Positions 7,975 through 23,927 of a DNA stretch of 64,000 nucleotides are shown one piece after another (the first letter of the stretch is position 1; each line of letters opens with the position of its first letter). Source of the stretch: Rhodovulum adriaticum (GTDB lineage: Bacteria > Pseudomonadota > Alphaproteobacteria > Rhodobacterales > Rhodobacteraceae); contig NZ_SLXL01000002.1 in NCBI RefSeq assembly GCF_004345735.1, positions 434,001 through 498,000 of the forward strand. The letters are read 5' to 3'. A program made the position numbers and the translations under genes. Below the pieces are notes generated by a model that saw only the letters and a list, made by a program, of their open reading frames with translations, did not search any database and was not told where the DNA came from.

Positions 7975-8011
7975 CGCGCCCACCGGCCCCGGCGCACGCC
8001 GGGTCAGCGGC

Positions 8012-8383: not shown

Positions 8384-8548
8384 TCGATCGACCCTTGGCT
8401 GAACACCGCGACCCAAAGCGCCGCCATGGTTGAAAATACCCTGCGCCACGCCCCCTAGCATAGGCGCGAATTGCCTCAGCGGCGCAGGTTTCCCCTACGG
8501 AATGTCGAATGTCTGCTACGATGCGCCGAGGAAAAAGGGAGGTTTGTC

Positions 8549-8833
8549 ATGCGTTTCATCCGCAAACTGCTGGGCCTGGTCATCGCCCTGGGGTTCTTGT
8601 TTTTCGGCCTGGCGTCCTTCTTCGGGTTCTACGAACAGTCGCTTGCCACGGGGAACCGCGACGACCTGTATGCCGGGATCTTCATGGGCGGACTGCTTTG
8701 CTTTTGCGGGCTGTTGCTGCTCGTCGTGGTTCTGCGCAAACCGCGCAAGCCCGCCGACCCGGCCGCGGCGGCAGCCACGATCTGGGCCGTGGGGATGACC
8801 AGCGATTTCGACGACTTCGATGGCAGCGATTGA
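8549..8833 (+). CDS. Hypothetical small membrane protein (94 aa, two TM segments)
   Basis: The product MRFIRKLLGLVIALGFLFFGLASFFGFYEQ... has a positively charged N-terminus, one hydrophobic helix at residues 5-27, a short polar loop (QSLATGNRDDLYAG), a second helix (IFMGGLLCFCGLLLLVVVL) and a soluble acidic tail ending DFDDFDGSD. It is not a recognisable member of a characterised family. A good Shine-Dalgarno (GGGAGG) lies seven bases before the ATG, which supports expression. It converges on cowN, with the two stop codons only six bases apart. Confidence 0.55.
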   Translation: MRFIRKLLGLVIALGFLFFGLASFFGFYEQSLATGNRDDLYAGIFMGGLLCFCGLLLLVVVLRKPRKPADPAAAAATIWAVGMTSDFDDFDGSD

Positions 8834-10405: not shown

Positions 10406-11410
10406 ATGAAAACGCTGCTGGGCGCCGCGACGGTTGCCACCTTCACCTTTGGCTTGGCCGCCGAGGCGATGGCCGAGGAATGGAATGTGTCCCTGTGGGG
10501 CAAGCGCCGCGCCTTTACCGAGCATGTCGAAAAGCTGGCCGAGCTGGTCGCCGAAAAGACCGGGGGAGAGTTCACGCTGAACATCTCTTACGGGGGGCTG
10601 TCCAAGAACACCGAGAATCTGGACGGCATTTCCATCGGCGCCTTCGAGATGGCACAGTTCTGCGCGGGCTATCACCGCGACAAGAACCCCTCGATCACCG
10701 TTCTGGAACTGCCGTTCCTGGGGGTTTCCAGCCTGGAGGAAGAGCGCAAGATCAGCCAGGCCGTCTATCAGCACCCGGCGGTGCAGGACGATCTGGCGCG
10801 CTGGAACGCCACGCTGCTGATGCCCTCACCGCTGCCGCAATACAACGTCGTGGGTGTGGGCGACGCGCCGCACACGCTGGACGATTTCGCAGGCTTCCCG
10901 GTGCGCGCCACCGGCGGGATCGGGGTGGCGATGGCCGCCATCGGCGCTGTGCCGACCTCGATGTCCGCGTCCGAGGTGCGCCAGGCGCTGGATTCCGGCG
11001 TGGTCAAGGGCGTCAGCTTTGCCCCGCATGCGCACATGTCCTTTGGCACCATCGAAACCGGCGAATGGTGGACCACCAACCTGAACCCCGGCACTGTGAA
11101 CTGCCCGGTCGTGGTGAATACCGACGCGCTGGACGGGCTGTCCGATGCGCACCGCGAGGCGCTGCTGGGGTCGGTCGATGAGGCGCTGGATTACTACATC
11201 GACTACTACAACTCCAACACGATGGAACGTTGGGGCCCGGCGCTGGACGAGCGCGGGATCGAGCGTGTGACCTTCACCGCCGAGGAACTGGCCGCCTTCG
11301 AAGCGGCGGCCGCGGGCCCTGCCGCCGCCGCCTGGATCGACGAAAACAGCGCCCGGGGCCTGCCCGCGCAGGAACTCTATGACCTCGTGACCGGCATGAT
11401 CGGGCAATAA
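10406..11410 (+). CDS. TRAP transporter solute-binding protein (DctP family), system 1
   Basis: The 334-residue protein has a signal peptide (MKTLLGAATVATFTFGLAAEAMAEE) and the DctP fold, including FPVRATGGIGVAMAAIGAVPTSMSASEVRQALDSGVVKG at about residue 165, where the conserved Arg that pairs with a substrate carboxylate sits. It binds an organic acid in the periplasm and delivers it to the DctQM permease encoded next. The exact ligand cannot be read from sequence. GGGAGGA precedes the ATG. A strong hairpin follows the gene, so the binding protein is probably made in excess over the permease. Confidence 0.88.
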   Translation: MKTLLGAATVATFTFGLAAEAMAEEWNVSLWGKRRAFTEHVEKLAELVAEKTGGEFTLNISYGGLSKNTENLDGISIGAFEMAQFCAGYHRDKNPSITVLELPFLGVSSLEEERKISQAVYQHPAVQDDLARWNATLLMPSPLPQYNVVGVGDAPHTLDDFAGFPVRATGGIGVAMAAIGAVPTSMSASEVRQALDSGVVKGVSFAPHAHMSFGTIETGEWWTTNLNPGTVNCPVVVNTDALDGLSDAHREALLGSVDEALDYYIDYYNSNTMERWGPALDERGIERVTFTAEELAAFEAAAAGPAAAAWIDENSARGLPAQELYDLVTGMIGQ

Positions 11411-11431
11411 GCCCGGCCTGACGATCCGCCT

Positions 11432-11460
11432 GCCCTGCCCCGGCGCAACCGGGGCAGGGC
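11432..11460 (+). terminator. 12-bp perfect stem-loop between binding-protein and permease genes
   Basis: GCCCTGCCCCGG and its exact complement flank a CGCAA loop. No T run follows, so it is unlikely to stop all transcription. Such hairpins commonly stabilise the upstream binding-protein message or cause partial termination, giving more binding protein than permease. Confidence 0.65.
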
Positions 11461-11483
11461 GTTTCGCCTGACCGGAGGGTTCC

Positions 11484-12116
11484 ATGGCTGCCCTTGCCCC
11501 GGTGCTGGAGGATCACAGCCTCCTGTCCCGCCTAGATCGTGGTTTCTACCGCATCGAACGTTTTTTGGCCCTGCTGTCCGGGCTGGCCGTGTTCGGCCTG
11601 ATGGTTCTGGCCGTGTTCTCGGTCGGCGGGCGCAACTTCTTCAACGCGCCGCTGCCCGGTTACGTGGACTGGATCCAGCAGGCGATGCCGCTGATCGCCT
11701 TTATGGGGATCGCGTACACGCAGCGCGACGGCGGCCATATCCGCATGGACATCCTGATCGGCGCGCTGAAAGGGCGCCTGTTGTGGGCGGCGGAATTCCT
11801 GACCACCTTTGCCGTTCTGGTGCTGATGGTCCTGCTGGTCTGGGGCACCTGGGCCCATTTCCAGCGCAGTTTCGATTTCGCAGCCCCGATGTGGAGCCGC
11901 GATTCCAGCTTTGACATCAACCTGCCGCTGTGGCCCGCCAAACTGCTGGCGCCGGTCGCCTTTTCGGTGCTGTGCCTGCGGCTGGTGCTGCAATTGTGGG
12001 GCTATGGGCGGGCCTTCGTTCTGGGCCTGTCGGAACCCGTGGCGGTGCCGCTGGTGCAATCCGCCGCCGAGATCGCCGCCGCCGAGGCAGAGCAGCTTTC
12101 GCGCGCGCAGGACTAG
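11484..12116 (+). CDS. TRAP transporter small permease subunit (DctQ family), system 1
   Basis: The 210-residue protein has four hydrophobic helices in the DctQ pattern. The conserved segment WIQQAMPLIAFMGIAYTQRDGGHIRMDILIGAL lies at about residues 63-96 and carries the family's G-H-I-x-[VM]-D motif. It is longer than many DctQ proteins (about 170 residues) because of an extended N-terminus and a loop before helix 4. It pairs with the large permease encoded nine bases downstream and the binding protein upstream. Confidence 0.88.
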   Translation: MAALAPVLEDHSLLSRLDRGFYRIERFLALLSGLAVFGLMVLAVFSVGGRNFFNAPLPGYVDWIQQAMPLIAFMGIAYTQRDGGHIRMDILIGALKGRLLWAAEFLTTFAVLVLMVLLVWGTWAHFQRSFDFAAPMWSRDSSFDINLPLWPAKLLAPVAFSVLCLRLVLQLWGYGRAFVLGLSEPVAVPLVQSAAEIAAAEAEQLSRAQD

Positions 12117-12125
12117 GGGACAGCC

Positions 12126-13526
12126 ATGGACACGGTAGATATCGGAATTGCCGTCACGGCCGGGCTGCTGGTCATGGTGGTGCTGGGCATGCGCGTGGCC
12201 TTTGCCGCGGCGCTGGCGGGCATGGTTGGGCTGATCTGGATCTTCTGGTCCAAGAAGGGCTATGACCCCGAGGATTTCGGCTGGGCGCTGACCGTGGCGG
12301 TCAAGACCGCAGGCCAGGTGCCCCATTCCAAGGTTGCCAACCAGGCGCTGTCGCTAATCCCAACCTTCATCCTGATCGGATACCTGGCCTATTACGCGGG
12401 GCTGACCCGCGCGCTGTTCGAGGCTGCGAAACGCTGGGTGGGATGGCTGCCCGGCGGGCTGGCGGTCTCCAGCGTCTTTGCCACCGCCGGGTTCGCCGCC
12501 GTGTCGGGGGCCAGCGTGGCAACAGCCGCCGTCTTTGCCCGCATCGCGATCCCCGAAATGCTGAAGATCGGCTATGACAAGCGCTTTGCCGCCGGCGTGG
12601 TGGCCGCAGGCGGGACGCTGGCCAGCCTGATCCCGCCCTCAGCCATCCTGGTGATCTACGCGATCATCGTGGAACAGGACGTGGGCAAGCTGCTGCTGGC
12701 AGGGTTCATCCCCGGCGTGGTGTCGGCCCTGATCTATGCCGCGCTGATCGTGGGGCTGGCGCTGGCCCTGCCTAAGTTCGGCCCGCCGGTGCGCGGCTTT
12801 ACCTGGGGGCAGCGGTTCAGCGCCCTGCCCCCGGCGCTGCCCATTGTCTTCGTCGTCGTGATCATCATCTTCTTCGTCTACAACCCCTTCGGCGGAGAGG
12901 CCTGGGGCACCCCAACCGAGGGGGGCGCGTTGGGCGCATTTGTGGTGTTCCTGATGGCGCTGGCCCGCGGCATGCGCTGGACCGAGTTCAAGAGCGCGCT
13001 GTTGGAAACCGCCAAGCTGTCGGTGATGATCTTTACCATCATCTGGGGCGTGCTGATCTATGTCCGCTTCCTGGGCTTTGCCGACCTGCCTGGCGCGTTT
13101 TCGGACTGGATCACCGGGCTGGAGCAGTCGCCCATGCTGACGCTGGTGCTGATCCTGCTGGCCTATGCGGTGCTGGGCATGTTCATGGATGCCATCGGCA
13201 TGCTGCTTCTGACCCTGCCGGTGGTTTACCCCGCCGTGATGGCCCTGAACGGGGGCGAATTCGTGTCCGCCGCCGACAGCACCTTTGGCATGTCAGGGCC
13301 GATGTGCGCGATCTGGTTCGGCATCCTGGTGGTCAAGATGGCCGAGTTCTGCCTGATCACACCGCCCATCGGGCTGAACTGTTTCGTGGTGGCCGGCGTG
13401 CGCGACGATATCAGCGTGCAGGACGTGTTCCGGGGCGTGACGCCCTTCTTCGTCGCGGATGCAATCACGATCGCCGTTCTGGTGGCGGTGCCGGGCATCG
13501 TGCTGTGGTTGCCCAGTTTCGTGTGA
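12126..13526 (+). CDS. TRAP transporter large permease subunit (DctM family), system 1
   Basis: The 466-residue membrane protein has the DctM pattern of about 12 helices, with FATAGFAAVSGASVATAAVFARIAIPEMLKIGYDKRFAAGVVAAGGTLASLIPPSAILVIYA in the N-terminal half, the signature stretch for this subunit, and a matching C-terminal half ending in VKMAEFCLITPPIGLNCFVVAGV. It performs sodium-coupled uptake of the ligand held by the binding protein. It ends the three-gene operon and converges on korC. Confidence 0.9.
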   Translation: MDTVDIGIAVTAGLLVMVVLGMRVAFAAALAGMVGLIWIFWSKKGYDPEDFGWALTVAVKTAGQVPHSKVANQALSLIPTFILIGYLAYYAGLTRALFEAAKRWVGWLPGGLAVSSVFATAGFAAVSGASVATAAVFARIAIPEMLKIGYDKRFAAGVVAAGGTLASLIPPSAILVIYAIIVEQDVGKLLLAGFIPGVVSALIYAALIVGLALALPKFGPPVRGFTWGQRFSALPPALPIVFVVVIIIFFVYNPFGGEAWGTPTEGGALGAFVVFLMALARGMRWTEFKSALLETAKLSVMIFTIIWGVLIYVRFLGFADLPGAFSDWITGLEQSPMLTLVLILLAYAVLGMFMDAIGMLLLTLPVVYPAVMALNGGEFVSAADSTFGMSGPMCAIWFGILVVKMAEFCLITPPIGLNCFVVAGVRDDISVQDVFRGVTPFFVADAITIAVLVAVPGIVLWLPSFV

Positions 13527-13557: not shown

Positions 13558-13577
13558 ACCGGCCCGCTCAGGCCGGT
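13558..13577. terminator. Hairpin at the convergent ends of TRAP system 1 and korC
   Basis: ACCGGCC and GGCCGGT pair around CGCTCA; the loop contains the korC stop codon. A 12-bp palindrome GGGCCATGGCCC lies just before at 13536-13547. No T run is present, so these are only candidate 3'-end structures shared by the two converging genes. Confidence 0.3.
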
Positions 13578-14107
13578 TCGGTTTCGCCCATCTGCAACCC
13601 CGCGGCAAAGGCATCGCGGTTCAGCCGCGCCAGTTTGGACGGGGTCATGGCCAGAACGCTATCCAGCAGCGGTTCCGGCGCGCACACCTGACCCAACGCG
13701 CTCAGCGCGCCCAAGGCGACGATGTTGGTCACGCGCGGATTGCCCAGTCCCCGCGCGGTTTCTGTAAAGGGCAGCGAAAGCGTGCGGAACGCGCCCTGGG
13801 GCACGGTCTGCACCCGCTCGGCATCGCACAGCACCAGCGATTGAGGTGTCAGCAACGGGACAGAGGCACCCGCCGCCGCCTCATCCAGCACCAGCATGTA
13901 GTCCAGCCGCCGGGCCAGCGGGAAATCGGCCTCGCCATCGCTGATCACAAGGTCCGACCGGCTGAGCCCCCCGCGCGACACGGGTTCATAGGCGTTGGAC
14001 TGGGCCACGTTACGCCCCTGCGCGGTCAGCGCCGCGGCCAGGATACGCGCCGACAGCAGCAGGCCCTGCCCGCCACTGCCCGAAAAGCGGATTTCCATGC
14101 TCACCAT
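13568..14107 (-). CDS. korC: 2-oxoacid:acceptor oxidoreductase gamma subunit (KorC-like)
   Basis: The 179-residue protein opens with MEIRFSGSGGQGLLLSARILA, the conserved GxGGQG segment of the gamma domain of 2-oxoacid:ferredoxin oxidoreductases, and has YEPVSRGGLSRSDLVISD and the LGNPRVTNIVALGAL pattern typical of KorC. It completes the KorABC enzyme that converts a 2-oxoacid and CoA to acyl-CoA and CO2. The ATG at 14107 overlaps the korB stop (TGATG); an internal ATG at 14098 has a better-spaced GGAG and gives MEIRFSG, so the true start could be either. It is the last gene of the leftward operon. Confidence 0.85.
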   Translation of the reverse strand: MVSMEIRFSGSGGQGLLLSARILAAALTAQGRNVAQSNAYEPVSRGGLSRSDLVISDGEADFPLARRLDYMLVLDEAAAGASVPLLTPQSLVLCDAERVQTVPQGAFRTLSLPFTETARGLGNPRVTNIVALGALSALGQVCAPEPLLDSVLAMTPSKLARLNRDAFAAGLQMGETEPA

Positions 14108-14952
14108 CACTCCGCCCCCCCGTCGCGCAGCGCCGCGGTCATCGCGCGATAGGCCGCGCCGTATTCCGGCCTTTCGTTGCGCGCGATCACGCCGGTTTTC
14201 AGGTGGTTGGCCCGGAACGGCACGTCCACCGTGTTGCGATAGGCAAAGGGCCGCATCGCGCTTTTCTTGGCCAGCATCATCTCGGGCGAGGCGCCCAGAT
14301 CGTTCTTGCGGCCGTAGATTTCCGTGCAGTCCGACAGCACCTCGACGAAGGAAAAGCCCTGATGCGCCACCGCCTGACGGATCAGGTCGCGCAAGGCCAG
14401 AACCTGCATTGTCACCTCGCGCCCCACGAACCCCGCACCCGCCGCCGTGGCCAGCGCGCAGGCGTCGAAATTGGGTTCGGTATTGCCGGCGGGGGTGGTC
14501 GAGGTATAGCGCCCCTCTGACGTGGTGGGCGACACCTGCCCGCCGGTCATGCCGTAGATCTCGTTGTTCAGCATCAGGCAGGTGATATCCAGGTTGCGGC
14601 GGCAGGCATGGATCAGGTGGTTACCCCCGATCGCCAGCGCGTCGCCATCGCCGCTGATGACCACGACATGCAGGTCGGGCCGCGCCAGTTTCAGACCCGT
14701 CGCATAGGTCAGCGGGCGGCCATGGGTAGTGTGAAAGGTGTTGGCGTCGATATAGGCCGACAACCGCCCCGAACAGCCGATGCCGGAAACCACCGCCAGC
14801 TTGTCCTTGTCGATACCCAGATCGTGCAGCGCCCAGACCAGCGCGCGCAGGGCGATGCCATGCCCGCAGCCGGGGCACAGGAAATGGGGCATCTGATCCT
14901 GGCGCAGCCAGTGGTTCACGTCAAAGGCGGTCTTGTCCGCAGTATCCTTCAT
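14107..14952 (-). CDS. korB: 2-oxoacid:acceptor oxidoreductase beta subunit (KorB-like, TPP-binding)
   Basis: The 281-residue protein has FLCPGCGHGIALRAL near residue 25, the Cys-rich entry of the beta subunit, and the thiamine diphosphate motif GDGDALAIGGNHLIHACRR at about 100-118, followed by NNEIYGMTGGQVSPTT. These are diagnostic for the TPP and 4Fe-4S carrying beta subunit of 2-oxoglutarate or related ferredoxin oxidoreductases. The 281-residue length is normal. Its ATG overlaps the korA stop in an ATGA junction. Substrate preference (2-oxoglutarate versus aryl or branched 2-oxoacids) cannot be fixed from sequence. Confidence 0.88.
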   Translation of the reverse strand: MKDTADKTAFDVNHWLRQDQMPHFLCPGCGHGIALRALVWALHDLGIDKDKLAVVSGIGCSGRLSAYIDANTFHTTHGRPLTYATGLKLARPDLHVVVISGDGDALAIGGNHLIHACRRNLDITCLMLNNEIYGMTGGQVSPTTSEGRYTSTTPAGNTEPNFDACALATAAGAGFVGREVTMQVLALRDLIRQAVAHQGFSFVEVLSDCTEIYGRKNDLGASPEMMLAKKSAMRPFAYRNTVDVPFRANHLKTGVIARNERPEYGAAYRAMTAALRDGGAE

Positions 14953-16091
14953 GCCAGCGCCTCCTTCGCCGCCTCGGCAATCTCGTCCGGCGTGATCGCC
15001 TGCCCGTCGATCTTGAACAGCCCCTGCACACGGGCCTGCCCGGCCAGCACGCGCTCGACCTCCAGCGCCAGTTGGCCCTGGTTCATCTCGGGCACCAGAA
15101 CGGTTTGCGTGCCCGATTTGGCAACAAGCGCGCGCAGCGCATCCTCGGGGAAGGGCCACAGCGTGACCGGGCGGAACAGGCCCACCTTTACCCCCTCGGC
15201 CCGCAGGTCGCGCACCGCCTGCCGCGCGGCACGGGCGGAAATGCCGATGGCGCAGATCAGCAGATCGGCATCGTCCACGTCCTGCACGCGCCAGCTTTCG
15301 ATCCGGTCGCGGTGCAGGGTCAGCTTGTCCGTGGTGCGTTGCACGGCGGCGGCGGCCACCGCGGGCACCTGGGTCGGGAACCCGCCCGGCGCATGGGTCA
15401 GACCCGTGCAATGGGCGCGGTAGCCGTCGCCGGGATACGCCATGGGCGGCACCAGATCCTCGGTCACGGCGTAGGGTTCGAACGCATCGGCGGGGCCTTG
15501 GGCGAACTTGCGCCAGACCTCGGGCGCCTCGGGCACGGCGGCTAGGTCCACGGTTTCGGTCAGGTGGCCGATCACCTCGTCCAGCAGCACGACCACGGGT
15601 ACGCGCAGGGTTTCGGACAACTCCACCGCGCGGATGGTTTCGGAATACGCCTCGCTGACCGAGGCCGGGGCCAGCACGATGATCGCGTGGTCGCCGTGCG
15701 TGCCCCAACGGGTCTGCATGATGTCGCCCTGCGCGGGCCGCGTGGGCATGCCCGTGGACGGCCCGCCGCGCATCACGTTGACCACGACGCAGGGGATTTC
15801 CGAGCCGCAGGCATAGCCCAGGTTTTCCTGTTTCAGGCTGAACCCGGGGCCCGAGGTCGCGGTCATCGCCTTGACGCCGCCCATCGACGCCCCGATCACG
15901 GCACCCATGGAGGCGATTTCATCCTCCATCTGGATGAAGGTGCCGCCCACCTTGGGCAGTTCGCGGGCCATGACCTCGGCCACCTCGGAGGACGGGGTGA
16001 TCGGGTAACCGGCGAAAAAGCGGCAACCGGCGCGGATCGCGCCCAATGCGCAGGCCTCGTTACCTTCTAGATTTCGGCGCGTCGCAGTCAT
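14949..16091 (-). CDS. korA: 2-oxoacid:acceptor oxidoreductase alpha subunit (KorA-like)
   Basis: The 380-residue protein starts MTATRRNLEGNEACALGAIRAGCRFFAGYPITPSSEV, the pyrimidine-binding domain opening of KorA/PorA-type alpha subunits. SGPGFSLKQENLGYACGSEIPCVVV and RGGPSTGMPTRPAQGD follow, as in 2-oxoglutarate:ferredoxin oxidoreductases. The usual fused gamma domain is absent and is instead encoded as korC. It forms the active core with KorB in the cytoplasm. Its start overlaps the stop of the IorB-ferredoxin gene, so all five genes look co-translated. Confidence 0.88.
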   Translation of the reverse strand: MTATRRNLEGNEACALGAIRAGCRFFAGYPITPSSEVAEVMARELPKVGGTFIQMEDEIASMGAVIGASMGGVKAMTATSGPGFSLKQENLGYACGSEIPCVVVNVMRGGPSTGMPTRPAQGDIMQTRWGTHGDHAIIVLAPASVSEAYSETIRAVELSETLRVPVVVLLDEVIGHLTETVDLAAVPEAPEVWRKFAQGPADAFEPYAVTEDLVPPMAYPGDGYRAHCTGLTHAPGGFPTQVPAVAAAAVQRTTDKLTLHRDRIESWRVQDVDDADLLICAIGISARAARQAVRDLRAEGVKVGLFRPVTLWPFPEDALRALVAKSGTQTVLVPEMNQGQLALEVERVLAGQARVQGLFKIDGQAITPDEIAEAAKEALA

Positions 16092-16981
16092 TCGGCGGGC
16101 TCCGTGATGGGGGTGTTGGTGACCTTGATGGCCATGTCGGGGCACAGCCAGGAACACAGCTGGCAGCCGGTGCACAGGTCCGGCAGCGCCAGTTCGGCCT
16201 TCAGCTGACCGTTCAGGCGCAGACAGCGTTCCGGGCACATCTTGACGCAGATATCGCAGCCCTTGCACCATTCGGCGGTGATCTCGACCACGGTGTCGAC
16301 CTGCGGGTGGTGCACCTCTGAATGCGCCTTGTGCAGGCCGCTGGCGGTCACGTCGATGCGTTTTTCACCGCCCTGCGCCCAGGCGCGCCCCTCGGCGAAA
16401 GCGCGGGCGTTGATCTCGACCGATTTGGGCGGGACGGTGCCGGCGATGATGTCCTGCCAGGCGTCTTCGGGAAACTCCAGCACGGTGGAGAGCGCCCCCA
16501 ACAGCACGGTGTTCGAGGCCTTGGCGTTGCCCAGGTTCGCGGCCATGCCCGTGGCATCCATCACATAGCCCGCGTGGACCTGATCGATGATTTCCTCGGG
16601 CGTCTGCGGCGCATAGGCGGGTTCGGCCCCGCGCTTGCGGTTGCGGCAGGCAAAGGGCGGCACGATCTTCTGGCAATCGGCGATGAAGGTGCCGGTATCG
16701 GGCTTCAGGTGCTTGATCCAGCGCAGGCCCTCGGCCCATTCCAGCGCCACCAGGATATCCACCTCGCCCTCGGGGATGGTGGGGGACCAGACCTTGGGGC
16801 CGAAGCGGACATGGCTGAACACGCCGCCGCCGCGCTTGGCCATGCCGTGGACTTCGCTTTGCTTCACGTCATGCCCATCGGCCTGGCACAGTTGCGCCAG
16901 CACCTTGGACACCATGATCACCCCCTGCCCGCCGACACCGACGATCAGGACGTTTTTCGTTGCATTGGGTTTGTCGGCCAT
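16088..16981 (-). CDS. iorB: IorB-like gamma domain fused to a two-cluster ferredoxin domain
   Basis: The N-terminal 200 residues (NVLIVGVGGQGVIMVSKVLAQ; SEVHGMAKRGGGVFSHVRFG) match the beta subunit of indolepyruvate:ferredoxin oxidoreductase. The C-terminal part adds two 4Fe-4S motifs, CKGCDICVKMCPERC and CTGCQLCSWLC, as in a 2[4Fe-4S] ferredoxin or KorD. Stand-alone IorB is about 200 residues, so this 297-residue protein is a fusion. It could pair with IorA upstream and also pass electrons for KorABC downstream, which is inference. The gene lies three bases after iorA and overlaps korA. Confidence 0.85.
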   Translation of the reverse strand: MADKPNATKNVLIVGVGGQGVIMVSKVLAQLCQADGHDVKQSEVHGMAKRGGGVFSHVRFGPKVWSPTIPEGEVDILVALEWAEGLRWIKHLKPDTGTFIADCQKIVPPFACRNRKRGAEPAYAPQTPEEIIDQVHAGYVMDATGMAANLGNAKASNTVLLGALSTVLEFPEDAWQDIIAGTVPPKSVEINARAFAEGRAWAQGGEKRIDVTASGLHKAHSEVHHPQVDTVVEITAEWCKGCDICVKMCPERCLRLNGQLKAELALPDLCTGCQLCSWLCPDMAIKVTNTPITEPAE

Positions 16982-16984
16982 GGG

Positions 16985-18805
16985 TCAGGCAGGCTCCGCA
17001 ATCGGTTTGATGGCGTGGCTGGTGCACAGTTGGGCACACAGGCTGCACCCGATGCAGGCGTCGGGGTCGATCTGCACCTTGTGGCGGCCTTCGTGCCATT
17101 CCTCGGACCAGGTCAGCGCCGGACAGCCCAGGTTCATGCAGGCCTGACAGGCGATGCAGCTTTCCTGCGCCACCTCCATCGCGGGGCCCTTGATCTTGAC
17201 CGGGTCCAGCACGCAGGGCCGGTCGGAAATCACCACCGACACGCCCTTGTGGGCCACCGCCTCGCGCAATTGCTGCTGCATGGTGGCGATGTCGTAGCTG
17301 TCCACCTTGTGCACATGCTTCACGCCCAGCGATTTCACCAGCTCGAAGAAATCGACCCGCGGTGACGGCTCGCCCCGCAGGGTGCGGCCGGTGCCGGGGT
17401 GATCCTGCCCGCCGGTCATCGCGGTGATGTGGTTGTCCAGAATGAAAACGGTGATATCGGCGTTGTTGTAGACCGCGTCGATCAGCGGCGGGATGCCCGA
17501 ATGCAGGAAAGTGGAATCGCCGATGGTCGCCACGATGGGTTTGGTTTCGGTGCCCGCCTTGGCCATACCCACCGCGTTGGCGATGCTGGACCCCATCGCC
17601 ACGCAGGTATCGATGGATTTCAAGGGTTCCACCACCGCCAGCGTGTAGCAGCCGATATCGCCGGCAACGCGCGCATCCAGCGCGCGCAGCGCCATAAAGC
17701 AGCTTGTATGCGGGCAGCCTGCGCACAGAACCGGCGGGCGGACCATCGGCGCGAATTCGAACGGGGCGGCGTTGCTGCGCGGGTCCATCAGCCCGGCATT
17801 GGCGAACCCGTCATGGACGATCTCGGGCGAAAACTCACCCTCGCGGGGGAAATACGCCTTGCCCTCGGCGGCGATGCCCATGGCCTTCAGCGCGTCCTCG
17901 ATCAGCGGTTCCAGTTCCTCGACGACGATCACGCGGTCGACGCTGGCGGCAAAGTCACGGATCAGCCGGTCGGGCAGCGGCCAAGTCACCCCCAGCTTCA
18001 GCACCGGCGCATCGGGCAGGCATTCCTTGACGTAGGTGTAGGGGATGCCCGAGGTGATGATGCCCACCTTGCCCTGCCCTGGCTCCACCCGGTTGAAGGG
18101 GCTGTCCGACAGCATTTCGGTCAGCCGCCGTTCGCGTTCCAGCACCACGCCGTGCTGGCGCCGCGCATGGGCGGGGATCATCACGTTCTTGGCGGGCAGG
18201 TCGTGAAAGGCCCGGCCGGTCTGATCCTCACGCGCGCCCAGCACAACAGCGCTGCGGGTGTGCGACAGCCGCGTGGTGGAACGAACGAAAACCGGCGTGT
18301 CGTATTTTTCCGACAGGGCAAAGGCCGCGCGGGTGAATTCCAGCGCCTCCTGCCCGTCCGAGGGTTCCAGCACCGGCACCTGCGCGAAACGGGCATAGAT
18401 CCGGCTGTCCTGTTCGTTTTGCGAGGAATGGATGCCCGGATCATCGCAGACCGCGATCACCAGCCCGCCATTCACCCCGATATAGGAAAACGACATCAGC
18501 GCATCGGCCGCCACGTTCATGCCGACATGCTTCATCGCCGTAAAGGCCCGCACACCGGCAAAGCTGGCGCCGATGGCCACATCCATCGCAGTCTTTTCGT
18601 TGGTGGACCACTGGGCGTGGATGTCCTCGGCCGGGTAGCCAGCCACGTTTTCCATGATCTCGGTCGAGGGCGTGCCGGGATAGGCGGCGGCGACCTTGCA
18701 GCCGGCCTCCCACACGCCGCGGGCGATGGCCTCATTGCCGGTCATGGGGCGCGCGGCGCCCGCAGCGGTCGGTTCGGCAGTCTCCTGCCGTTGGGCATGG
18801 CTCAT
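16985..18805 (-). CDS. iorA: Indolepyruvate:ferredoxin oxidoreductase alpha subunit (IorA)
   Basis: The 606-residue protein has the IorA order: pyrimidine domain with AAAYPGTPSTEIMENVAGY near residue 40 and KTAMDVAIGASFAGVRAFTAMKHVG, then a TPP domain with CAGCPHTSCFMAL and GDSTFLHSGIPPLIDAVYNN, then C-terminal Fe-S motifs CIACQACMNLGCPA and CIGCSLCAQLC. IorAB oxidises aryl-pyruvates from tryptophan, phenylalanine and tyrosine to aryl-acetyl-CoA with ferredoxin as acceptor. The second cluster lacks the usual Pro after the last Cys (Thr instead). A TRAP operon precedes it on the same strand, and PaaI and PaaK genes are divergent nearby, supporting an aryl-acid role. Confidence 0.88.
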   Translation of the reverse strand: MSHAQRQETAEPTAAGAARPMTGNEAIARGVWEAGCKVAAAYPGTPSTEIMENVAGYPAEDIHAQWSTNEKTAMDVAIGASFAGVRAFTAMKHVGMNVAADALMSFSYIGVNGGLVIAVCDDPGIHSSQNEQDSRIYARFAQVPVLEPSDGQEALEFTRAAFALSEKYDTPVFVRSTTRLSHTRSAVVLGAREDQTGRAFHDLPAKNVMIPAHARRQHGVVLERERRLTEMLSDSPFNRVEPGQGKVGIITSGIPYTYVKECLPDAPVLKLGVTWPLPDRLIRDFAASVDRVIVVEELEPLIEDALKAMGIAAEGKAYFPREGEFSPEIVHDGFANAGLMDPRSNAAPFEFAPMVRPPVLCAGCPHTSCFMALRALDARVAGDIGCYTLAVVEPLKSIDTCVAMGSSIANAVGMAKAGTETKPIVATIGDSTFLHSGIPPLIDAVYNNADITVFILDNHITAMTGGQDHPGTGRTLRGEPSPRVDFFELVKSLGVKHVHKVDSYDIATMQQQLREAVAHKGVSVVISDRPCVLDPVKIKGPAMEVAQESCIACQACMNLGCPALTWSEEWHEGRHKVQIDPDACIGCSLCAQLCTSHAIKPIAEPA

Positions 18806-18852
18806 GGTTTCTTTCCCGGTTCGCGCGGTTTGCCTAATAAAGTTACGATGGT

Positions 18853-18880
18853 TCTATATTCCCGGCAATTTTACAACAAA
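18853..18880 (-). promoter_or_regulatory. Candidate promoter of the iorA-korC operon
   Basis: Read leftward, TTTGTT at 18880-18875 and TATAGA at 18858-18853 are separated by 16 bases, in an unusually AT-rich stretch of the 94-base gap between the TRAP operon and iorA. It would give a leader of about 40 bases. It may supplement read-through from the TRAP genes. Confidence 0.35.
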
Positions 18881-18899
18881 GCGCGGATTGCCGCATGGG

Positions 18900-20243
18900 T
18901 CACGGCCCCATCTGGCCGGGCAGGAACAGCACCAGCGCCGGGATCGCCACGATCAGCGCCAGGCGGAACAGGTCGGCAATCCAGAAGGGCGTGACCCCGC
19001 GAAAGATCGTGCCGGTGCTGACATCGCTCAGCACGCCGCGCAGGACAAAGACGTTCAGGCCCACAGGCGGGGTAATCAGGCTGATTTCCGTGACCACCAC
19101 CACCACGATGCCGAACCACACCGGATCGTAGCCCAGCGACACCACCAGCGGAAAGAAGATCGGCACCGTCAACAGCAGCATCGACAGGCTTTCGAACACG
19201 CAACCGAGGATGACATAGACCAGCAGGATCATCAGCATGACCGTCAGCGGCGCAACGTCAAAGGCCGTGACAAGACCCAGCAGCGCCTCTGGCAGGCCGG
19301 CCATGTTGACGAAGTTGGAAAAGATCTGCGCACCGATCAGCACGGCGAACAGGCTGGTGGCGGTGACAGCGCTTTCCTTCAGCACCTCGAAGGTGGATTT
19401 CAGCGTCAGCCCGCCGCGCGCCAGCGCGATCAGGAAGGCGCCGGTCGCGCCCATGCCCGCGGCCTCGGTCGGGGAAAAGGTCAGGTTCAGGGGCGGCACG
19501 TCGAACACCCCGTAAAGCCCGCCGATCACCAACACGAACAGCAGCAGCACCGCCCAGATGGACCGCAGGGCGCGCAGACGCTGCGGCCACGGCGTGCGGG
19601 CGGCGGCCGGGCCGGCGGCGGGGTCGCGAAACACCACCCAGCGCACCGCCAGCAGGTAGAACAGGATGCCCAGGGCGCCGGGCACGATGCCCGCGATGAA
19701 CAGCTTGCCGATAGAGGTTTCGGTCAGCAGCCCGTAGATCACCAGAATGACCGAGGGCGGGATCAGGATGCCCAATGTGCCCCCCGCCGCGATAGACGCC
19801 GTGGACAGCCGGTCGGCATAGCCGTAGCGGCGCATCTCGGGCATGGCGACCTTGGACATGGTGGCCGCGGTGGCCAGCGACGACCCGCAAATCGCCGAAA
19901 AGCCCCCGCAGGCCGCCACCGTCGCCATCGCCAGCCCGCCGCGCATATGCCCCAGAAACACATGGGATACGGCGTACAGCTCGCGCGCCAGCCCGCCCTT
20001 GTTCACGAACAGGCCCATCAGGATGAACAGCGGGATCACCGACAGCCCGTAATCCTGCGCGGTGTCGGTGATCTGGCGGCCCACCATCGACATCGCGGCC
20101 TTCAGCCCCCGTTCATCCAGGATCGAGCCGCCCCGCTCATACGCATAGCCAATCGTGCCCACCAACCCCATGGCGAAAACGATGGGCATGCGCATCAGCA
20201 CCAGCGCCAGAACCAGTGCAAAGCCGATCAGGGCAACGGTCAT
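18900..20243 (-). CDS. TRAP transporter large permease subunit (DctM family), system 2
   Basis: The 447-residue membrane protein carries the DctM core: FSAICGSSLATAATMSKVAMPEMRRYGYADRLSTASIAAGGTLGILIPPSVILVIYG at about residues 115-170 and the C-terminal EISLITPPVGLNVFVLRGV. It moves the solute captured by the binding protein encoded at 20808-21833, driven by a sodium gradient. The ATG overlaps the small-permease stop (ATGA). Its location directly upstream of the IOR/KOR genes suggests that the imported acid feeds them. Confidence 0.9.
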   Translation of the reverse strand: MTVALIGFALVLALVLMRMPIVFAMGLVGTIGYAYERGGSILDERGLKAAMSMVGRQITDTAQDYGLSVIPLFILMGLFVNKGGLARELYAVSHVFLGHMRGGLAMATVAACGGFSAICGSSLATAATMSKVAMPEMRRYGYADRLSTASIAAGGTLGILIPPSVILVIYGLLTETSIGKLFIAGIVPGALGILFYLLAVRWVVFRDPAAGPAAARTPWPQRLRALRSIWAVLLLFVLVIGGLYGVFDVPPLNLTFSPTEAAGMGATGAFLIALARGGLTLKSTFEVLKESAVTATSLFAVLIGAQIFSNFVNMAGLPEALLGLVTAFDVAPLTVMLMILLVYVILGCVFESLSMLLLTVPIFFPLVVSLGYDPVWFGIVVVVVTEISLITPPVGLNVFVLRGVLSDVSTGTIFRGVTPFWIADLFRLALIVAIPALVLFLPGQMGP

Positions 20244-20749
20244 GCGGCGATGTCCTCGTCCAGCAGATATGGGGCAACCAGGTGGACCAGGCCCACCGCG
20301 ACCATCACGGCAGCCGTCACCGCGACCGACACGGCGATAAAGGCGGTGACGTAAAAGACAGGGATCGACAGGTATTCCGTCACGTCCCCGTAATCGCGCG
20401 CGCGGCCCGCCAGCACCCAGACCCGCTGCGCGGGCCAGGCCAGCATGACGCCGCAGGCGATGTGAATTGCCGCCTCGCGCAGGCGGTTCAGGTGCCAGCG
20501 GTCGAAGAACCCGTCGAACAGGTCCACCGCGATATGCCCGCCCCGGGCCGAGATCACCGGCAGACAGGAAAACACCATGACCGCCATCAGGATACGGGTC
20601 AGTTCGGTCGCGGCCTCTATCGGGGCGTCGAAGGCCGAGCGCCCGATCACATCGGCAAAGGTCATTCCCATCAGCACGAAAAGCGCAAGGCAGGCCAGCG
20701 CGACAGGCGCCCGGCTGGCAACCTTGGCAACCCGGATCAACGTTTCCAT
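20240..20749 (-). CDS. TRAP transporter small permease subunit (DctQ family), system 2
   Basis: The 169-residue protein shows four hydrophobic helices and the DctQ signature SARGGHIAVDLFDGFFDRW at about residues 66-84. Length is typical for the family. I start at METLIRVAKV (20749), with AAGGACG upstream, rather than at the longer frame from 20785 whose first residues are basic and unlike DctQ. It sits 58 bases after the binding-protein gene and overlaps the large permease gene by four bases. Confidence 0.87.
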   Translation of the reverse strand: METLIRVAKVASRAPVALACLALFVLMGMTFADVIGRSAFDAPIEAATELTRILMAVMVFSCLPVISARGGHIAVDLFDGFFDRWHLNRLREAAIHIACGVMLAWPAQRVWVLAGRARDYGDVTEYLSIPVFYVTAFIAVSVAVTAAVMVAVGLVHLVAPYLLDEDIAA

Positions 20750-20807
20750 CCCGCGTCGTCCTTTCCGGGGGCAGGCCGGTCCCACCGGCCCGCCCGCCGC
20801 ATTCGCG

Positions 20808-21833
20808 TTACTCGAAAGCCGCCATTTCGGCCTTGATCATCTCATAGGCGGCCTGGGCATCGACGCCGGTGGCGGCAACCTCTTCGATCACCTTGGCCCG
20901 CACGCCTGTCGCGACCTCGTCGAAGCGCGCGACATCCTCGGGGCTGGCGTCGATGATGGCGTTGCCGGGGGTTGCCAGCGTCGCCTCGATGGCCTCGGCA
21001 TCGCCCGCTTCCCAGATCGCGCCGATGGCGCGGCTGATGGGCTCGCCGAACACCTCGTCCTCCAGCACCTGTTGAATATCCTCGGGCAGGTCGGCAAAGG
21101 CGTCCTCGTTCATGATAAAGGCGAACGATCCGCGATAGAGGCCCCCGGGCAGCATGTACATGTTCTGCGCCACCTCGGTCAGCTTGAAGCCGACGCGGGA
21201 GTCGATGGGCATCACCACCCCGTCCGCCGCCTTGGAGGCCAGCGTTTCATAGACCTTGGTCGCGGGCACCTTGATACCGATCATGCCCAGTGCCTGACCC
21301 ACATCGGCGGCGACGCCACCGGGGATGCGCACCTTCATGCCCTCGGCCTGGGACAGCTCGGTGACCTGTTCCGCCGACATCAGCTGCGCGCCGCCATGGG
21401 TGTGCAGGGCCACGACCTTGACCCCGCGATGCTCGTTCGCGTCCTTGAGGTATGCGTCATAAGCCCGCCAATAGGCGACCGAGGCCGCCTCGGAGCTGCC
21501 GACATAGCCGGGCAGTTCGATCATCTTGGTGGTGACGAACCGCCCGGCCTGATAGCCATGAAAGATGATCGACAGGTCCGCCGCGCCGTCCATCACCAGG
21601 TCCATCTGCGCGGGCGGCGGGGCCAGGCCCAGTTTCAGTTCGGTGGTCACGCGGCCATCGGTGGCCTCTTCGACCATCTCGGTAAAGGTGGGCCACATGC
21701 GCGCGTTGATGGAATGGGTGGGCGGCGCCCAGCTGGAAATGACCAGCGTGTAATCCGCGGCAAGGGCCGTGCCGGCCGTCAGCGCAAAGGCCGCGCTGGC
21801 CAGCAGCCCCCCGAAGGTGGTGAATTTCGCCAT
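20808..21833 (-). CDS. TRAP transporter solute-binding protein (DctP family), system 2
   Basis: The 341-residue protein has a signal peptide (MAKFTTFGGLLASAAFALTAGTALAAD) and the conserved ligand site segment AEGMKVRIPGGVAADVGQALGMIGIKVPATKVYETLASKAADGVVMPIDS, where the Arg of KVRIPGG is expected to bind the substrate carboxylate. Its sequence differs strongly from system 1, so a different ligand is likely. An aryl-acid or aryl-pyruvate ligand is inferred from the adjoining genes only. A strong Shine-Dalgarno (GGAGGAGAGC) precedes the ATG. It heads the leftward operon. Confidence 0.88.
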   Translation of the reverse strand: MAKFTTFGGLLASAAFALTAGTALAADYTLVISSWAPPTHSINARMWPTFTEMVEEATDGRVTTELKLGLAPPPAQMDLVMDGAADLSIIFHGYQAGRFVTTKMIELPGYVGSSEAASVAYWRAYDAYLKDANEHRGVKVVALHTHGGAQLMSAEQVTELSQAEGMKVRIPGGVAADVGQALGMIGIKVPATKVYETLASKAADGVVMPIDSRVGFKLTEVAQNMYMLPGGLYRGSFAFIMNEDAFADLPEDIQQVLEDEVFGEPISRAIGAIWEAGDAEAIEATLATPGNAIIDASPEDVARFDEVATGVRAKVIEEVAATGVDAQAAYEMIKAEMAAFE

Positions 21834-22156
21834 GCTCTCCTCCCAGATGGAATGGCGTTGATATCAGGGGATCGCGGCGTCAATCGCCCCGCCCCGGGTT
21901 TACGCGTCTTTCGCCCCGCCTCCTCCTGCGGCGCGAAATCCTGCGTGCGGGTCCGCCTCCTTGCGTCATTTGGCCCCTTCGGCCGTCATTGACCCTGACC
22001 GGCCGCTCTCTGCATCATGCGGAAAATGATCGAAAAGCCTGGGGCCATGATCCGAAATTTTCTTGCGCATGAGGACCGCTCGCGGGCCGGGCACGGCGCC
22101 AAAGGTGACCGCCGGAGCGCCCCACGCATAGGCGACCGAGCGCCGCAGGACCTGCC
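21834..22156. other. 323-base divergent control region of the aryl-acid island
   Basis: This gap separates the TRAP system 2 operon from paaI and must hold both promoters. I see no gene in it. It contains an AT-rich patch at about 22019-22070 with the 12-mer GGAAAATGATCG, also seen at 1421, and a loosely paired GAAAAT/ATTTTC dyad. No clear -35/-10 pair or PaaR-type operator is obvious, and no regulator gene is adjacent. Confidence 0.4.
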
Positions 22157-22582
22157 ATGACCCCGCAGGACCGCGCGAACCGATGCGCTGCGGCGATGAC
22201 CCAGGCCGCCGATGCGGTGCGCTGGATGGGCATCGAACTGGTCGAGATCGCACCAGGCGCCGCGACGATGTGCATGACGATTGCGCCCCACCATGCAAAC
22301 GGCCACCGCATCTGCCACGGGGGCGTGATCTTTACGCTGGCCGACACCGCGTTCGCCTATGCCTGCAACAGCCGCAACGTGTCCACCGTCGCGCAGCACG
22401 GCAACATCAGCTTCATCGCGCCCGCCCATGTCGGCGACGTGCTGACCGCCACTGCCGCGGAACGGGCGCTGAGCGGCAAGAACGGCATCTACGACATCCG
22501 CGTCGCGCGCCAGGACGGCACCCTGATCGCGGAAATGCGGGGCCTGTCACGGGCCGTTCGCGGGCAATGGTTCACGGAATGA
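22157..22582 (+). CDS. paaI: PaaI family hotdog thioesterase
   Basis: The 141-residue protein matches PaaI: the NGHRICHGGVIFTLADTAFAYACNSRN block at residues 48-74 contains the Asn, HGG and Asp63 of the hotdog active site, and GKNGIYDIRVARQDGTLIAEMRG closes the fold. PaaI hydrolyses ring-hydroxylated phenylacetyl-CoA thioesters and serves as a CoA-releasing safety valve in phenylacetate metabolism. It starts a rightward pair with paaK (34-base gap), divergent from the transport and IOR/KOR operons. Confidence 0.87.
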   Translation: MTPQDRANRCAAAMTQAADAVRWMGIELVEIAPGAATMCMTIAPHHANGHRICHGGVIFTLADTAFAYACNSRNVSTVAQHGNISFIAPAHVGDVLTATAAERALSGKNGIYDIRVARQDGTLIAEMRGLSRAVRGQWFTE

Positions 22583-22616
22583 AAGGGTCGGCAAACCGGC
22601 CGGGGAGGAGAAAGCC

Positions 22617-23927
22617 ATGAAGGATATGAAGATGGCACGCGAGGGGCTGGAACCGATCGAGACCGCCTCGCGCGACGAGATCACAGCGCTGCAACTGGAT
22701 CGCCTGAAATGGTCCCTGCGCCACGCCTATGACAACGTGCCGATGTATCGTGAGCGGTTCGAGGCCGCCGGTGTGCACCCCGACGACCTGCAATCGCTGG
22801 CCGATCTGGCGAAATTCCCCTTCACCGTGAAGAACGACCTGCGCGACCATTACCCGTTCGGCCTGTTCGCGGTGCCGCGCAACCGGATCGTGCGGCTGCA
22901 TGCCTCCTCGGGCACGACGGGCAAGCCGACGGTGGTGGGCTATACGAAACGCGACATCGACACCTGGGCCGACCTGATGGCGCGGTCCCTGCGCGCGGGC
23001 GGCGTGCGGCCGGGCGACGTGGTGCATGTGGCCTATGGCTATGGGCTGTTCACCGGCGGGCTGGGGGCGCATTACGGCGCCGAACGGCTGGGCGCGACGG
23101 TGGTGCCGGTTTCGGGCGGGATGACCGAACGACAGGTCACCCTGATCCAGGATTTCCAGGCCAGCGCGATCATGGTTACGCCTTCCTACATCCTGAATAT
23201 CCTTGAGGAATACCACCGCCGCGGGCTGGACCCCAAGCAAAGCCCCCTGCAAACCGGCCTGTTCGGGGCCGAGCCCTGGACAAACGCCATGCGCCGCGAG
23301 ATCGAGCAAGCCTTCGACATGCACGCGGTCGACCTGTACGGGCTGTCGGAAATCCTGGGCCCCGGCGTTGCGATGGAATGCGTGGAAACCAAGGACGGCC
23401 TGCACCTGTGGGAGGATCATTTTTACCCCGAGGTGATCGACCCCCAAACCGGCGCGGTCCTGCCCGATGGCGAGGTCGGCGAAATGGTCCTGACCACCCT
23501 GACCAAAGAGGGGCTGCCGATGATCCGCTACCGCACGCGCGACCTGACCCGGCTGATGCCCGGCACCGCGCGGTCGATGCGGCGGATGGAAAAGATCACC
23601 GGGCGGTCCGACGACATGATCATCCTGCGCGGTGTGAACCTCTTCCCCTCGCAGGTCGAGGAACTGGTGGTCGCCACCGGCGGGCTGACAAACCACTACC
23701 AGCTGGAACTGTATCGCGCGGGCCATATGGACGCGATGCGCATCCATGTCGAATGCAGCGCCGATGCGGCTGACGATGCCTCGCGCGCGGCGGCCGCGCG
23801 GATGCTGCACAAGCGGATCAAGGACGTGATCGGCGTTTCCACCGAGGTTGACGTGAAACGCCCGGACAGCATCGCCCGATCCCAGGGCAAGGCGCAGCGG
23901 ATCGTGGACAACCGCCCGAGGGACTGA
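22617..23927 (+). CDS. paaK: Phenylacetate-CoA ligase (PaaK)
   Basis: The 436-residue protein has the PaaK layout: ASSGTTGKPTVVGYT nucleotide loop at about 96-110, then VSGGMTERQ, LYGLSEILGPGVAMEC, the RYRTRDLT motif and the C-terminal GRSDDMIILRGVNLFPSQVEE. It forms phenylacetyl-CoA (or related aryl-acetyl-CoA) from the free acid, CoA and ATP in the cytoplasm. None of the aerobic paaABCDE epoxidase genes is nearby. Together with IorAB it would give two routes to aryl-acetyl-CoA. GGGGAGGAG precedes the ATG. Confidence 0.9.
   Translation: MKDMKMAREGLEPIETASRDEITALQLDRLKWSLRHAYDNVPMYRERFEAAGVHPDDLQSLADLAKFPFTVKNDLRDHYPFGLFAVPRNRIVRLHASSGTTGKPTVVGYTKRDIDTWADLMARSLRAGGVRPGDVVHVAYGYGLFTGGLGAHYGAERLGATVVPVSGGMTERQVTLIQDFQASAIMVTPSYILNILEEYHRRGLDPKQSPLQTGLFGAEPWTNAMRREIEQAFDMHAVDLYGLSEILGPGVAMECVETKDGLHLWEDHFYPEVIDPQTGAVLPDGEVGEMVLTTLTKEGLPMIRYRTRDLTRLMPGTARSMRRMEKITGRSDDMIILRGVNLFPSQVEELVVATGGLTNHYQLELYRAGHMDAMRIHVECSADAADDASRAAAARMLHKRIKDVIGVSTEVDVKRPDSIARSQGKAQRIVDNRPRD

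Follow-up and report, generated by a model that had tools for sequence, protein, structure and literature searches.

A candidate tethered pair of 2-oxoacid oxidoreductases in a putative aryl-acid gene cluster of Rhodovulum adriaticum

Why should two different 2-oxoacid oxidoreductases share a single ferredoxin-bearing subunit? The question is raised by a locus of Rhodovulum adriaticum (assembly GCF_004345735.1; 3.35 Mb, 36 contigs, 99.93% complete) in which iorA and iorB, encoding an IorAB-type enzyme, are followed by korA, korB and korC, encoding a KorABC-type enzyme. The locus lies in a stretch of 64,000 nucleotides (contig NZ_SLXL01000002.1, positions 434,001 to 498,000), hereafter the window. 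A first-pass annotation of the letters alone had described a leftward operon consisting of genes for a tripartite ATP-independent periplasmic (TRAP) importer, iorA, an iorB fused to a 2[4Fe-4S] domain, and korABC, divergent from paaI and paaK. Open frames and family scans (curated NCBIfam-type cut-offs and Pfam) confirmed gene content, strands and divergence; longest-frame gene calling gave many shadow frames in this G+C-rich DNA, and a codon-based caller was used instead. We read the five ior and kor genes as one unit of two linked 2-oxoacid oxidoreductases within an aryl-acid module, a reading towards which the evidence tips, but only just.

The fused ferredoxin domain and the five-gene block

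The iorB product comprises a gamma-type POR domain (residues ~1-202), a linker and a C-terminal 2[4Fe-4S] domain (~228-291) with two CxxCxxCxxxC motifs. Among 177,635 distinct PDB sequences, the best match of the fused domain was the OorD chain of an entry titled as the OorDABC complex of Helicobacter pylori (8ys5_D, E 2.3e-8; next match 1.7e-5). The same complex provides the nearest solved relative of KorB and the second-nearest of KorA (8ys5_A, after 1yd7), and the order found here, iorB::D-A-B-C, is that of the oorDABC name with D joined to the C-terminus of IorB. Moreover, in a stand-alone operon (locus L129) korA, korB and korC come immediately after an unfused ferredoxin gene of 79 aa; the genome concerned (G1041) also harbours the fused block (L114). 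Because the PDB match, the gene order and this operon concur, the fused ferredoxin is best read as a predicted KorD/OorD, supplying the delta subunit that KorABC otherwise lacks, and the gene as iorB::korD. The 2[4Fe-4S] domain of the first-pass annotation is thus present, but its assignment moves from IorB to KorABC. An AlphaFold2 model of IorB::KorD (50-row alignment) had a pLDDT (predicted local distance difference test) of 83.2 and a pTM (predicted template modelling score) of 0.72, with linker residues 214-222 below 50. Apart from its first row, discussed below, the Foldseek search with this model returned OorC/PorC-type chains for the N-terminal domain and a PorD-type chain (9bt4_H, E 6.5e-3).

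We compared 80 loci, the best 80 of at least 587 confirmed candidate stretches. The protein query contained the ferredoxin domain, so the fusion among these loci says little alone. Both cluster motifs lay inside the IorB frame in 78 of them, the other two ending at a contig edge, and a separate delta-subunit gene was absent at the block. Matches to iorA, iorB::korD, korA, korB and korC occurred in this order in 69/80 loci, including three in which iorA is cut at the locus edge (L013, L021, L023) and two in which korA is in two pieces (L021, L069). Ten of the other 11 loci stop at a contig end and one (L083) runs into N-containing sequence. Counted by gene calls, five called genes stood in order in 66/80 loci, and no rearranged gene order was found in any of the 80.

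The commonest junction was a 4-base overlap at all four internal borders (29/78, 32/77, 37/73 and 28/69, with script-chosen starts). In R. adriaticum the overlaps of four bases or one base noted from iorB onwards were likewise found: four bases at IorB/KorA and KorA/KorB, and at KorB/KorC four with a GTG start or one if korC begins at an ATG one codon later (14107). IorA and IorB are separated by 3 bases and DctM and IorA by 94; DctQ and DctM overlap by four.

The block occurred in records titled alpha-, beta-, gamma- or deltaproteobacterial or SAR324. Since the same five genes stand in the same order in alpha-, beta- and gammaproteobacterial records, the comparison argues that the block is beyond chance. 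A search of other Rhodobacteraceae, proposed by the first-pass annotation, did find the gene order, in 4/295 genomes. The block is therefore rare within the family and, being known from other classes, not peculiar to it. Among the matches listed, the named records with the fused protein most similar to that of R. adriaticum (90-91% identity) were Rhodovulum tesquicola, R. euryhalinum and R. strictum, which share the layout of paaK, paaI and TRAP genes followed by the block, and in which the paaI/dctP intergenic region is partly conserved. In R. kholense and R. visakhapatnamense (88%) the block is present but the TRAP-paaK flank is missing.

A fairer test than the 80 loci was provided by samples searched with an IorA profile, in which 6/387 class genomes and 8/397 phylum genomes matched at E <= 1e-100 (13 distinct genomes, R. 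adriaticum being in both samples). IorB was fused in eight genomes, of which at least three of the seven other than R. adriaticum were already among the 80, and KorABC adjoined in 8/8. In the five genomes with an unfused IorB, by contrast, a Kor match was found in 0/5 within the 14.5-15 kb fetched. An OorB profile matched six times in 5/397 genomes of the phylum sample; the four matches above 290 bits were the block, and the others the L129 operon and a two-subunit KorAB. Distance matrices of the subunits correlated at 0.79-0.87 (63 loci).

Taken together, the 69 ordered loci, the contrast between fused and unfused genomes and the OorD match support the earlier suggestion that two oxidoreductases share one ferredoxin-bearing fusion subunit, and judged from the same comparisons the five subunits probably form a physical complex. 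No description of the five-gene block was found in the literature searched, which consisted of titles and abstract openings, subscription papers being mostly beyond reach.

Active sites and aryl-acid surroundings

All 12 IorA cysteines examined (four proximal, eight in the ferredoxin domain) were Cys in 77/77 aligned sequences. The three KorB cysteines were kept in 71/71 and the KorB motif for thiamine pyrophosphate (TPP) in 70-71/71; the eight KorD-domain cysteines were kept in 79-81/81, the remainder being gaps. The PITP motif, Arg108, Thr113 and Leu231 of KorA were invariant in 75/75, as were Arg63 and Met135 of KorB in 71/71. Since the cysteines, the TPP motif, PITP and Arg108 are conserved, both active sites look functional.

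IorA passed the cut-off of its family (TIGR03336) and pairs with IorB as in IorAB enzymes elsewhere. Unfused relatives (L116-L118) also show a paaI-paaK-iorA-iorB neighbourhood. The pair differs from such enzymes in an IorB that is ~95 aa longer through its ferredoxin and in the KorABC that follows. We consider an aryl substrate of IorAB likely.

For KorABC, pocket-residue equivalences were read by eye, and residue roles follow the available part of PMC5020499. According to this text, the position of KorA Leu231 is Leu in the 2-oxoglutarate-specific KorAB of Hydrogenobacter and Asp in the broad Sulfolobus enzymes. The position is also Leu in H. pylori and Magnetococcus, and KorB Arg63 corresponds to Arg in both solved 2-oxoglutarate enzymes. 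KorB Met135 and Gly137, by contrast, depart from the solved enzymes. On balance the pocket residues would mildly favour a 2-oxoglutarate-type substrate, no more, and we give such a substrate an even chance. The idea that KorB Met135 points to an IOR- or VOR-like substrate was dropped, the stand-alone KorB of L129 having YGMTGGQ as well. The oxalate oxidoreductase equivalog cut-offs were far off (beta 46.5 vs 590, alpha 41 vs 500).

The solute receptor DctP had as its top PDB matches 4p56, 7nr2, 7nsw, 7nrr, 5im2, 5iga and 5i5p. By their titles, 7nr2/7nra, 7nsw/7ntd and 7nrr are TarP with cinnamate, coumarate, ferulate or caffeate, and 5iga/5i5p are receptors specific for aromatic acid ligands; a more distant relative, 7nqg (E 1e-10), holds 4-hydroxyphenylacetate. 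The ligand of 4p56 is presumably mandelate; the evidence from titles does not extend to 4p56 or 5im2. The AlphaFold model of DctP was poor (pLDDT 47.5), and its Foldseek list was used for entry titles, the leading entries agreeing with the sequence search. Arg169, probably binding a carboxylate, was invariant in 5/5. DctP thus appears TarP-like and resembles aromatic-acid receptors. In Rhodopseudomonas palustris, TarP has nanomolar Kd values for cinnamates, and these ligands are bound there by an ABC receptor of the LivK type as well (PMC3610893, as far as available). Unlike in the TarPQM system described there, the TRAP genes here adjoin oxidoreductases, and the aromatic ligand of DctP is a prediction.

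Among the 80 loci, PaaK was present in 27, a LivK-type receptor in 19 (by clustering and by eye), PaaI in eight and a DctP like that of R. adriaticum in four. The LivK-type receptor was nearest to 3sg0, 4dqd and 3ukj, whose ligands we take to be aromatic. Flanks of 4 kb or more before the block and 2.5 kb or more after it were available for 44 loci, and 25 of these had genes for PaaK, LivK, DctP or amine dehydrogenase.

Three loci (L057, L071, L078) have amine-dehydrogenase genes, then the block, then paaK on the same strand. By called starts, the gene preceding iorA lies 3-6 bases from it, and korC lies 6-21 bases from paaK. Each of the three includes genes that by eye resemble MauE and cytochrome c (the latter without a family match), as well as a MauD gene, which is over cut-off for L078; L071 and L078 also encode a heavy chain of 380 aa and an aldehyde dehydrogenase. 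The L071 heavy chain was nearest to aromatic amine dehydrogenase (5.9e-44, vs 3.7e-31 for methylamine dehydrogenase). The L071 aldehyde dehydrogenase stayed under the cut-offs of all 25 models listed for it. Only L057, a locus that starts inside the cluster, had a called light chain, and this was under cut-off. On these neighbourhoods, an aryl-acid context of the block appears supported.

A family scan of ten hand-picked long neighbour genes gave no shared theme; they were a histidine kinase, EF-G, gyrase B, an FMN/Fe-S protein, MMPL, a P-type ATPase, a sulfatase, a TPP enzyme, a FadB-like protein and PALP.

Fate of the carbon and direction of the electrons

We searched for pathway markers in R. 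adriaticum and in 41 (PaaA/PaaC), 42 (HPD, HmgA, BoxB) or 21 (HGD-D, RnfB, 2-oxoglutarate dehydrogenase E1) genomes of the 80 loci, many of them metagenome-assembled genomes (MAGs) of unknown completeness. Of the 12 named non-MAG records, all but L084 were covered. The 12 non-MAG genomes counted here are R. adriaticum, R. tesquicola, R. euryhalinum, R. strictum, R. kholense, R. visakhapatnamense, Shimia gijangensis, Rhodopseudomonas faecalis, R. palustris JSC-3b, Rhodopseudomonas sp. BR0M22, Thermopetrobacter sp. TC1 and Blastochloris sulfoviridis.

The 99.93%-complete genome of R. adriaticum gave no match for PaaA/PaaC (PF05138), HGD-D (BcrBC-type), BoxB, HPD or HmgA. The absence of aerobic paaABCDE genes, noted earlier for the island, was thereby borne out for PaaA/PaaC across the whole genome: of the aerobic paa pathway, PaaK and PaaI are present over cut-off and the PaaA/PaaC epoxidase is without match. 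A general flow into homogentisate was rejected for R. adriaticum on the lack of an HPD or HmgA match, and the benzoyl-CoA routes on the lack of HGD-D and BoxB. PaaA/PaaC had no match in 8/12 non-MAG genomes and was present in 4/12, and none of the five markers was over cut-off in 5/12 (R. adriaticum, R. tesquicola, R. faecalis, R. palustris JSC-3b and TC1). Of the amine-dehydrogenase genomes, those of L071 and L078 lacked a PaaA/PaaC or BoxB match, and that of L057 had BoxB and HPD over cut-off. Because the markers vary between block genomes, the block would seem not to be tied to one ring-degrading pathway. A role of KorABC as substitute for 2-oxoglutarate dehydrogenase was rejected: E1 had a match in 22/22 genomes (21 over cut-off), so KorABC would not be needed as a tricarboxylic acid cycle enzyme.

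Aryl-acetyl-CoA can be hydrolysed, or carboxylated to aryl-pyruvate and aminated, as in methanogens. In R. adriaticum the missing markers speak for assimilation, or for exchange between aryl acids and amino acids, over a degradative funnel, although other routes, such as PadBCD or 4-hydroxyphenylacetate hydroxylases, lie outside the five markers and may exist. The aryl-acid island of the first-pass annotation therefore stands in its context (TarP-like DctP, PaaK, PaaI and the other loci), and its funnel into a known ring-degrading route goes unsupported, the five tested markers being without match. The earlier observation was right and its interpretation half right; the genes keep their order wherever they are associated, but the association is rare.

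In the arrangement that we propose, IorAB would be an enzyme of the aryl-pyruvate/aryl-acetyl-CoA type and KorABC an Oor/Kor-type enzyme acting most likely on 2-oxoglutarate/succinyl-CoA or a similar 2-oxoacid. KorD, fused to IorB, would tether the two, its two [4Fe-4S] clusters forming a shared electron port. The TarP-like TRAP system would import aryl-acetate, PaaK would convert it to aryl-acetyl-CoA, and IorAB would interconvert this with aryl-pyruvate. In the reductive direction, aryl-acetyl-CoA and CO2 would give aryl-pyruvate, which would then be transaminated; for R. adriaticum we put this net direction about even with the oxidative one, if anything slightly behind it. With KorD seated as in OorDABC and IorB docked on IorA, a chain of clusters could run between the two TPP sites, from the IorA proximal cluster and ferredoxin domain through KorD to the KorB proximal cluster. 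Put modestly, the proposal is two tethered enzymes that share an electron port; put boldly, it is direct exchange without free ferredoxin. That the two active sites exchange electrons directly seems, as far as sequences can tell, unlikely, albeit conceivable.

Several observations weigh against the reading of the block as two linked enzymes in an aryl-acid module. IorB (TIGR03334, 133.4 vs 205.8; best related model, 199.7 vs 237), KorB (PRK09628 for OorB, 309.1 vs 364) and KorC (Table 1) were under their cut-offs, so that these three names are given by homology only. KorA also missed the OorA equivalog cut-off (415.4 vs 579), and the gamma subunit of KorABC was assigned by Pfam POR only. KorB Met135 and Gly137 differ from the Leu and Asn of H. 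pylori Oor and the Leu and Lys of Magnetococcus, and in Sulfolobus the replacement of Lys by Arg at the site equivalent to KorB Arg63 was in favour of pyruvate (PMC5020499, available part). Nineteen of the 44 loci with good flanks had no PaaK, LivK, DctP or amine dehydrogenase, and ring-degradation markers were over cut-off in other block genomes too (PaaA/C 17/42, HGD-D 11/22, HPD 7/43, HmgA 9/43, BoxB 17/43). The seven fused genomes besides R. adriaticum all belong to one class and 4/5 unfused ones lie outside it; the contrast between them partly follows class and so is not independent of descent. PaaK distances correlated with those of the five subunits at 0.83-0.91 (21 loci), and because PaaK correlates as well, distance correlations do not single out a complex.

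Finally, the first Foldseek row for IorB::KorD was a Moorella oxalate oxidoreductase chain aligned over both domains (5c4i_E, E 2.0e-12, root-mean-square deviation 15.5), which we take to be a gamma-delta fusion inside one enzyme. The joining of gamma and ferredoxin domains is therefore not in itself new, and with this one-enzyme precedent IorAB could be the only enzyme that the fused ferredoxin serves. In Moorella, however, the fusion lies within one enzyme and not between two, and the domain placement differs.

The best-surviving alternative keeps this anatomy and changes direction and destination. Aryl-pyruvate, imported or made by transamination, would be oxidised to the acyl-CoA by IorAB (possibly with KorABC acting on another 2-oxoacid), and the fused ferredoxin would gather the electrons for soluble ferredoxin, Rnf or nitrogenase. 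Such an oxidative funnel agrees with IorA being over cut-off, with an RnfB in R. adriaticum (231.1 bits) and with a PaaI that could release the free acid, and PaaA/PaaC occurs in the 4/12 non-MAG genomes mentioned. In the available text of PMC13285125, HpdDEFG of Clostridium scatologenes, a multi-subunit enzyme of the same superfamily, is reported as a 4-hydroxyphenylpyruvate:ferredoxin oxidoreductase; it is described there as one four-subunit enzyme, and our comparison is by description, not sequence. The five unmatched markers, however, speak against a funnel in R. adriaticum, RnfB was over cut-off in only 7/22 genomes, and the position of the block between amine-dehydrogenase genes and paaK in three loci would deliver aryl-acetyl-CoA from the other side. 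We regard the funnel as rather unlikely, though ahead of the explanations that follow.

According to a second alternative, the genes share a promoter and nothing else: the fused ferredoxin would serve one enzyme, as delta subunit of KorABC or as part of a gamma-delta chain of IorAB, and no electrons would pass between enzymes. IorA owns a 2[4Fe-4S] domain, unfused IorAB occurs without KorABC elsewhere, and the Moorella chain covers both domains. But KorABC stands beside the fusion in 8/8 genomes vs 0/5 unfused, even if partly along class lines, and no rearranged block was found in the 80 loci, which makes this explanation quite unlikely.

A route from phenylacetate to benzoyl-CoA, with KorABC as phenylglyoxylate oxidoreductase after phenylacetyl-CoA oxidation, is very improbable: BoxB and HGD-D are over cut-off in the genome counts given above, R. 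adriaticum included among those searched, but R. adriaticum itself has a match for neither, and the equivalog models of the PadEFGHI phenylglyoxylate dehydrogenase were far under cut-off (PadG 67.7 vs 700, PadI 38.1 vs 700, PadE 26.2 vs 300; PadBCD unsearched). A Kor-type enzyme in an aromatic context is described for Thauera and R. palustris BisB5, where KorAB feeds benzoyl-CoA reductase; the available text of PMC9973337 mentions no IorAB partner, and R. adriaticum lacks the HGD-D match.

Gene layout and implications of a possible wired pair

The features of the locus are collected in Table 1.

Table 1. Features of the R. adriaticum locus, in window coordinates, with the basis of each assignment
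Feature	Position	Strand	Basis
korC/oorC-like gamma subunit, 180 aa	13568..14110	-	Pfam POR 94.7 bits; NCBIfam best PRK08537, 93 vs 235, under cut-off
korB/oorB-like beta subunit, TPP site and proximal [4Fe-4S] cysteines, 281 aa	14107..14952	-	PDB best H. pylori OorB 8ys5_C, E 1e-75; TPP_enzyme_C
korA/oorA-like alpha subunit, 380 aa	14949..16091	-	PRK08659, 546.8 vs 411 bits, over cut-off
iorB::korD fusion, 297 aa	16088..16981	-	Pfam POR and Fer4; ferredoxin domain likest OorD
iorA, 606 aa, POR_N, TPP domain and C-terminal 2[4Fe-4S] domain	16985..18805	-	TIGR03336, 703.6 vs 650.9, over cut-off
dctM-type TRAP large permease, 447 aa	18900..20243	-	TIGR00786, 304 bits, over cut-off
dctQ-type TRAP small permease	20240..20749	-	Pfam DctQ; start by codon scoring; alternative GTG start 20785
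dctP/TarP-like TRAP solute receptor, 341 aa, probable carboxylate-binding Arg169	20808..21833	-	phmmer PDB matches
Divergent intergenic region, 323 bases	21834..22156	.	4-row alignment, conserved blocks
paaI-like hotdog thioesterase, 141 aa	22157..22582	+	TIGR02286, 140.5 vs 118.9, over cut-off
paaK phenylacetate-CoA ligase, 436 aa	22617..23927	+	TIGR02155, 703.6 vs 646.3, over cut-off

By eye, the divergent intergenic region shows GATCAT repeats along with an ATGATG element, lying in blocks conserved across four Rhodovulum-type sequences; these conserved blocks are a possible operator. A second full TRAP system (10406-13526, + strand; DctP 334 aa, DctQ 204 aa, DctM 466 aa) lies convergent to korC. 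In contrast to the TarP-like receptor, that of the second system is remote from solved ones (best 4ovq, E 5.4e-15). No genes of this system were called behind korC in loci L008-L010. An IS1595-type transposase with a zinc ribbon lies further along the window (31133-32011, + strand).

A third POR-domain gene of the genome (G000:C3; locus L131, 5616-9020) encodes a single chain of ~1134 aa that is presumably a fused IorAB-type enzyme (by eye), with glutamate racemase-like and LysR-like neighbours (by eye). In a Rhodobacteraceae MAG (L016, ~13910-15820), a 1135-aa protein with 24% similarity to IorA is encoded just after the block. A 1.5-Mb genome (L111 in G479, 7009-8622) has an IorA of ~540 aa lacking the C-terminal ferredoxin domain, together with an unfused IorB and PaaK; this IorA may need an external ferredoxin.

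In six loci titled Betaproteobacteria or Burkholderiales (L041, L048, L053, L059, L060, L074), iorA is preceded by genes that by eye resemble an Rrf2 regulator and a small GNAT protein. A UbiT-like gene is divergent from iorA in L044, L045, L047, L058 and L072 (over cut-off in L044), with UbiU/UbiV in most by eye. Such flanks, belonging to oxygen-independent ubiquinone synthesis, would point to low oxygen.

To our knowledge, descriptions of 2-oxoacid:ferredoxin oxidoreductases treat them as independent enzymes whose only meeting point is diffusible ferredoxin. If two of them are covalently joined in a conserved way, the block would be a wired pair, in which exchange of electrons, and even of CO2, without a free carrier is directly testable. 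The furthest consequence would be a carboxyl swap in a single five-subunit enzyme, aryl-acetyl-CoA + 2-oxoglutarate = aryl-pyruvate + succinyl-CoA, which would be redox-neutral. KorABC would oxidise 2-oxoglutarate to succinyl-CoA and CO2, two electrons would pass via the KorD clusters to IorAB, and IorAB would spend electrons and CO2 on aryl-acetyl-CoA to form aryl-pyruvate, or the reverse. We regard this swap as a long shot, and we know of no described organism with such a salvage route. If true, it would be independent of free low-potential ferredoxin, and organisms relying on 2-oxoglutarate dehydrogenase would be able to recover aromatic amino acids from aryl-acetates and aromatic amines, or to degrade these amino acids. 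A wired pair could also explain the purpose of aryl-acetate activation in genomes such as that of R. adriaticum, which lack the ring-degrading routes tested.

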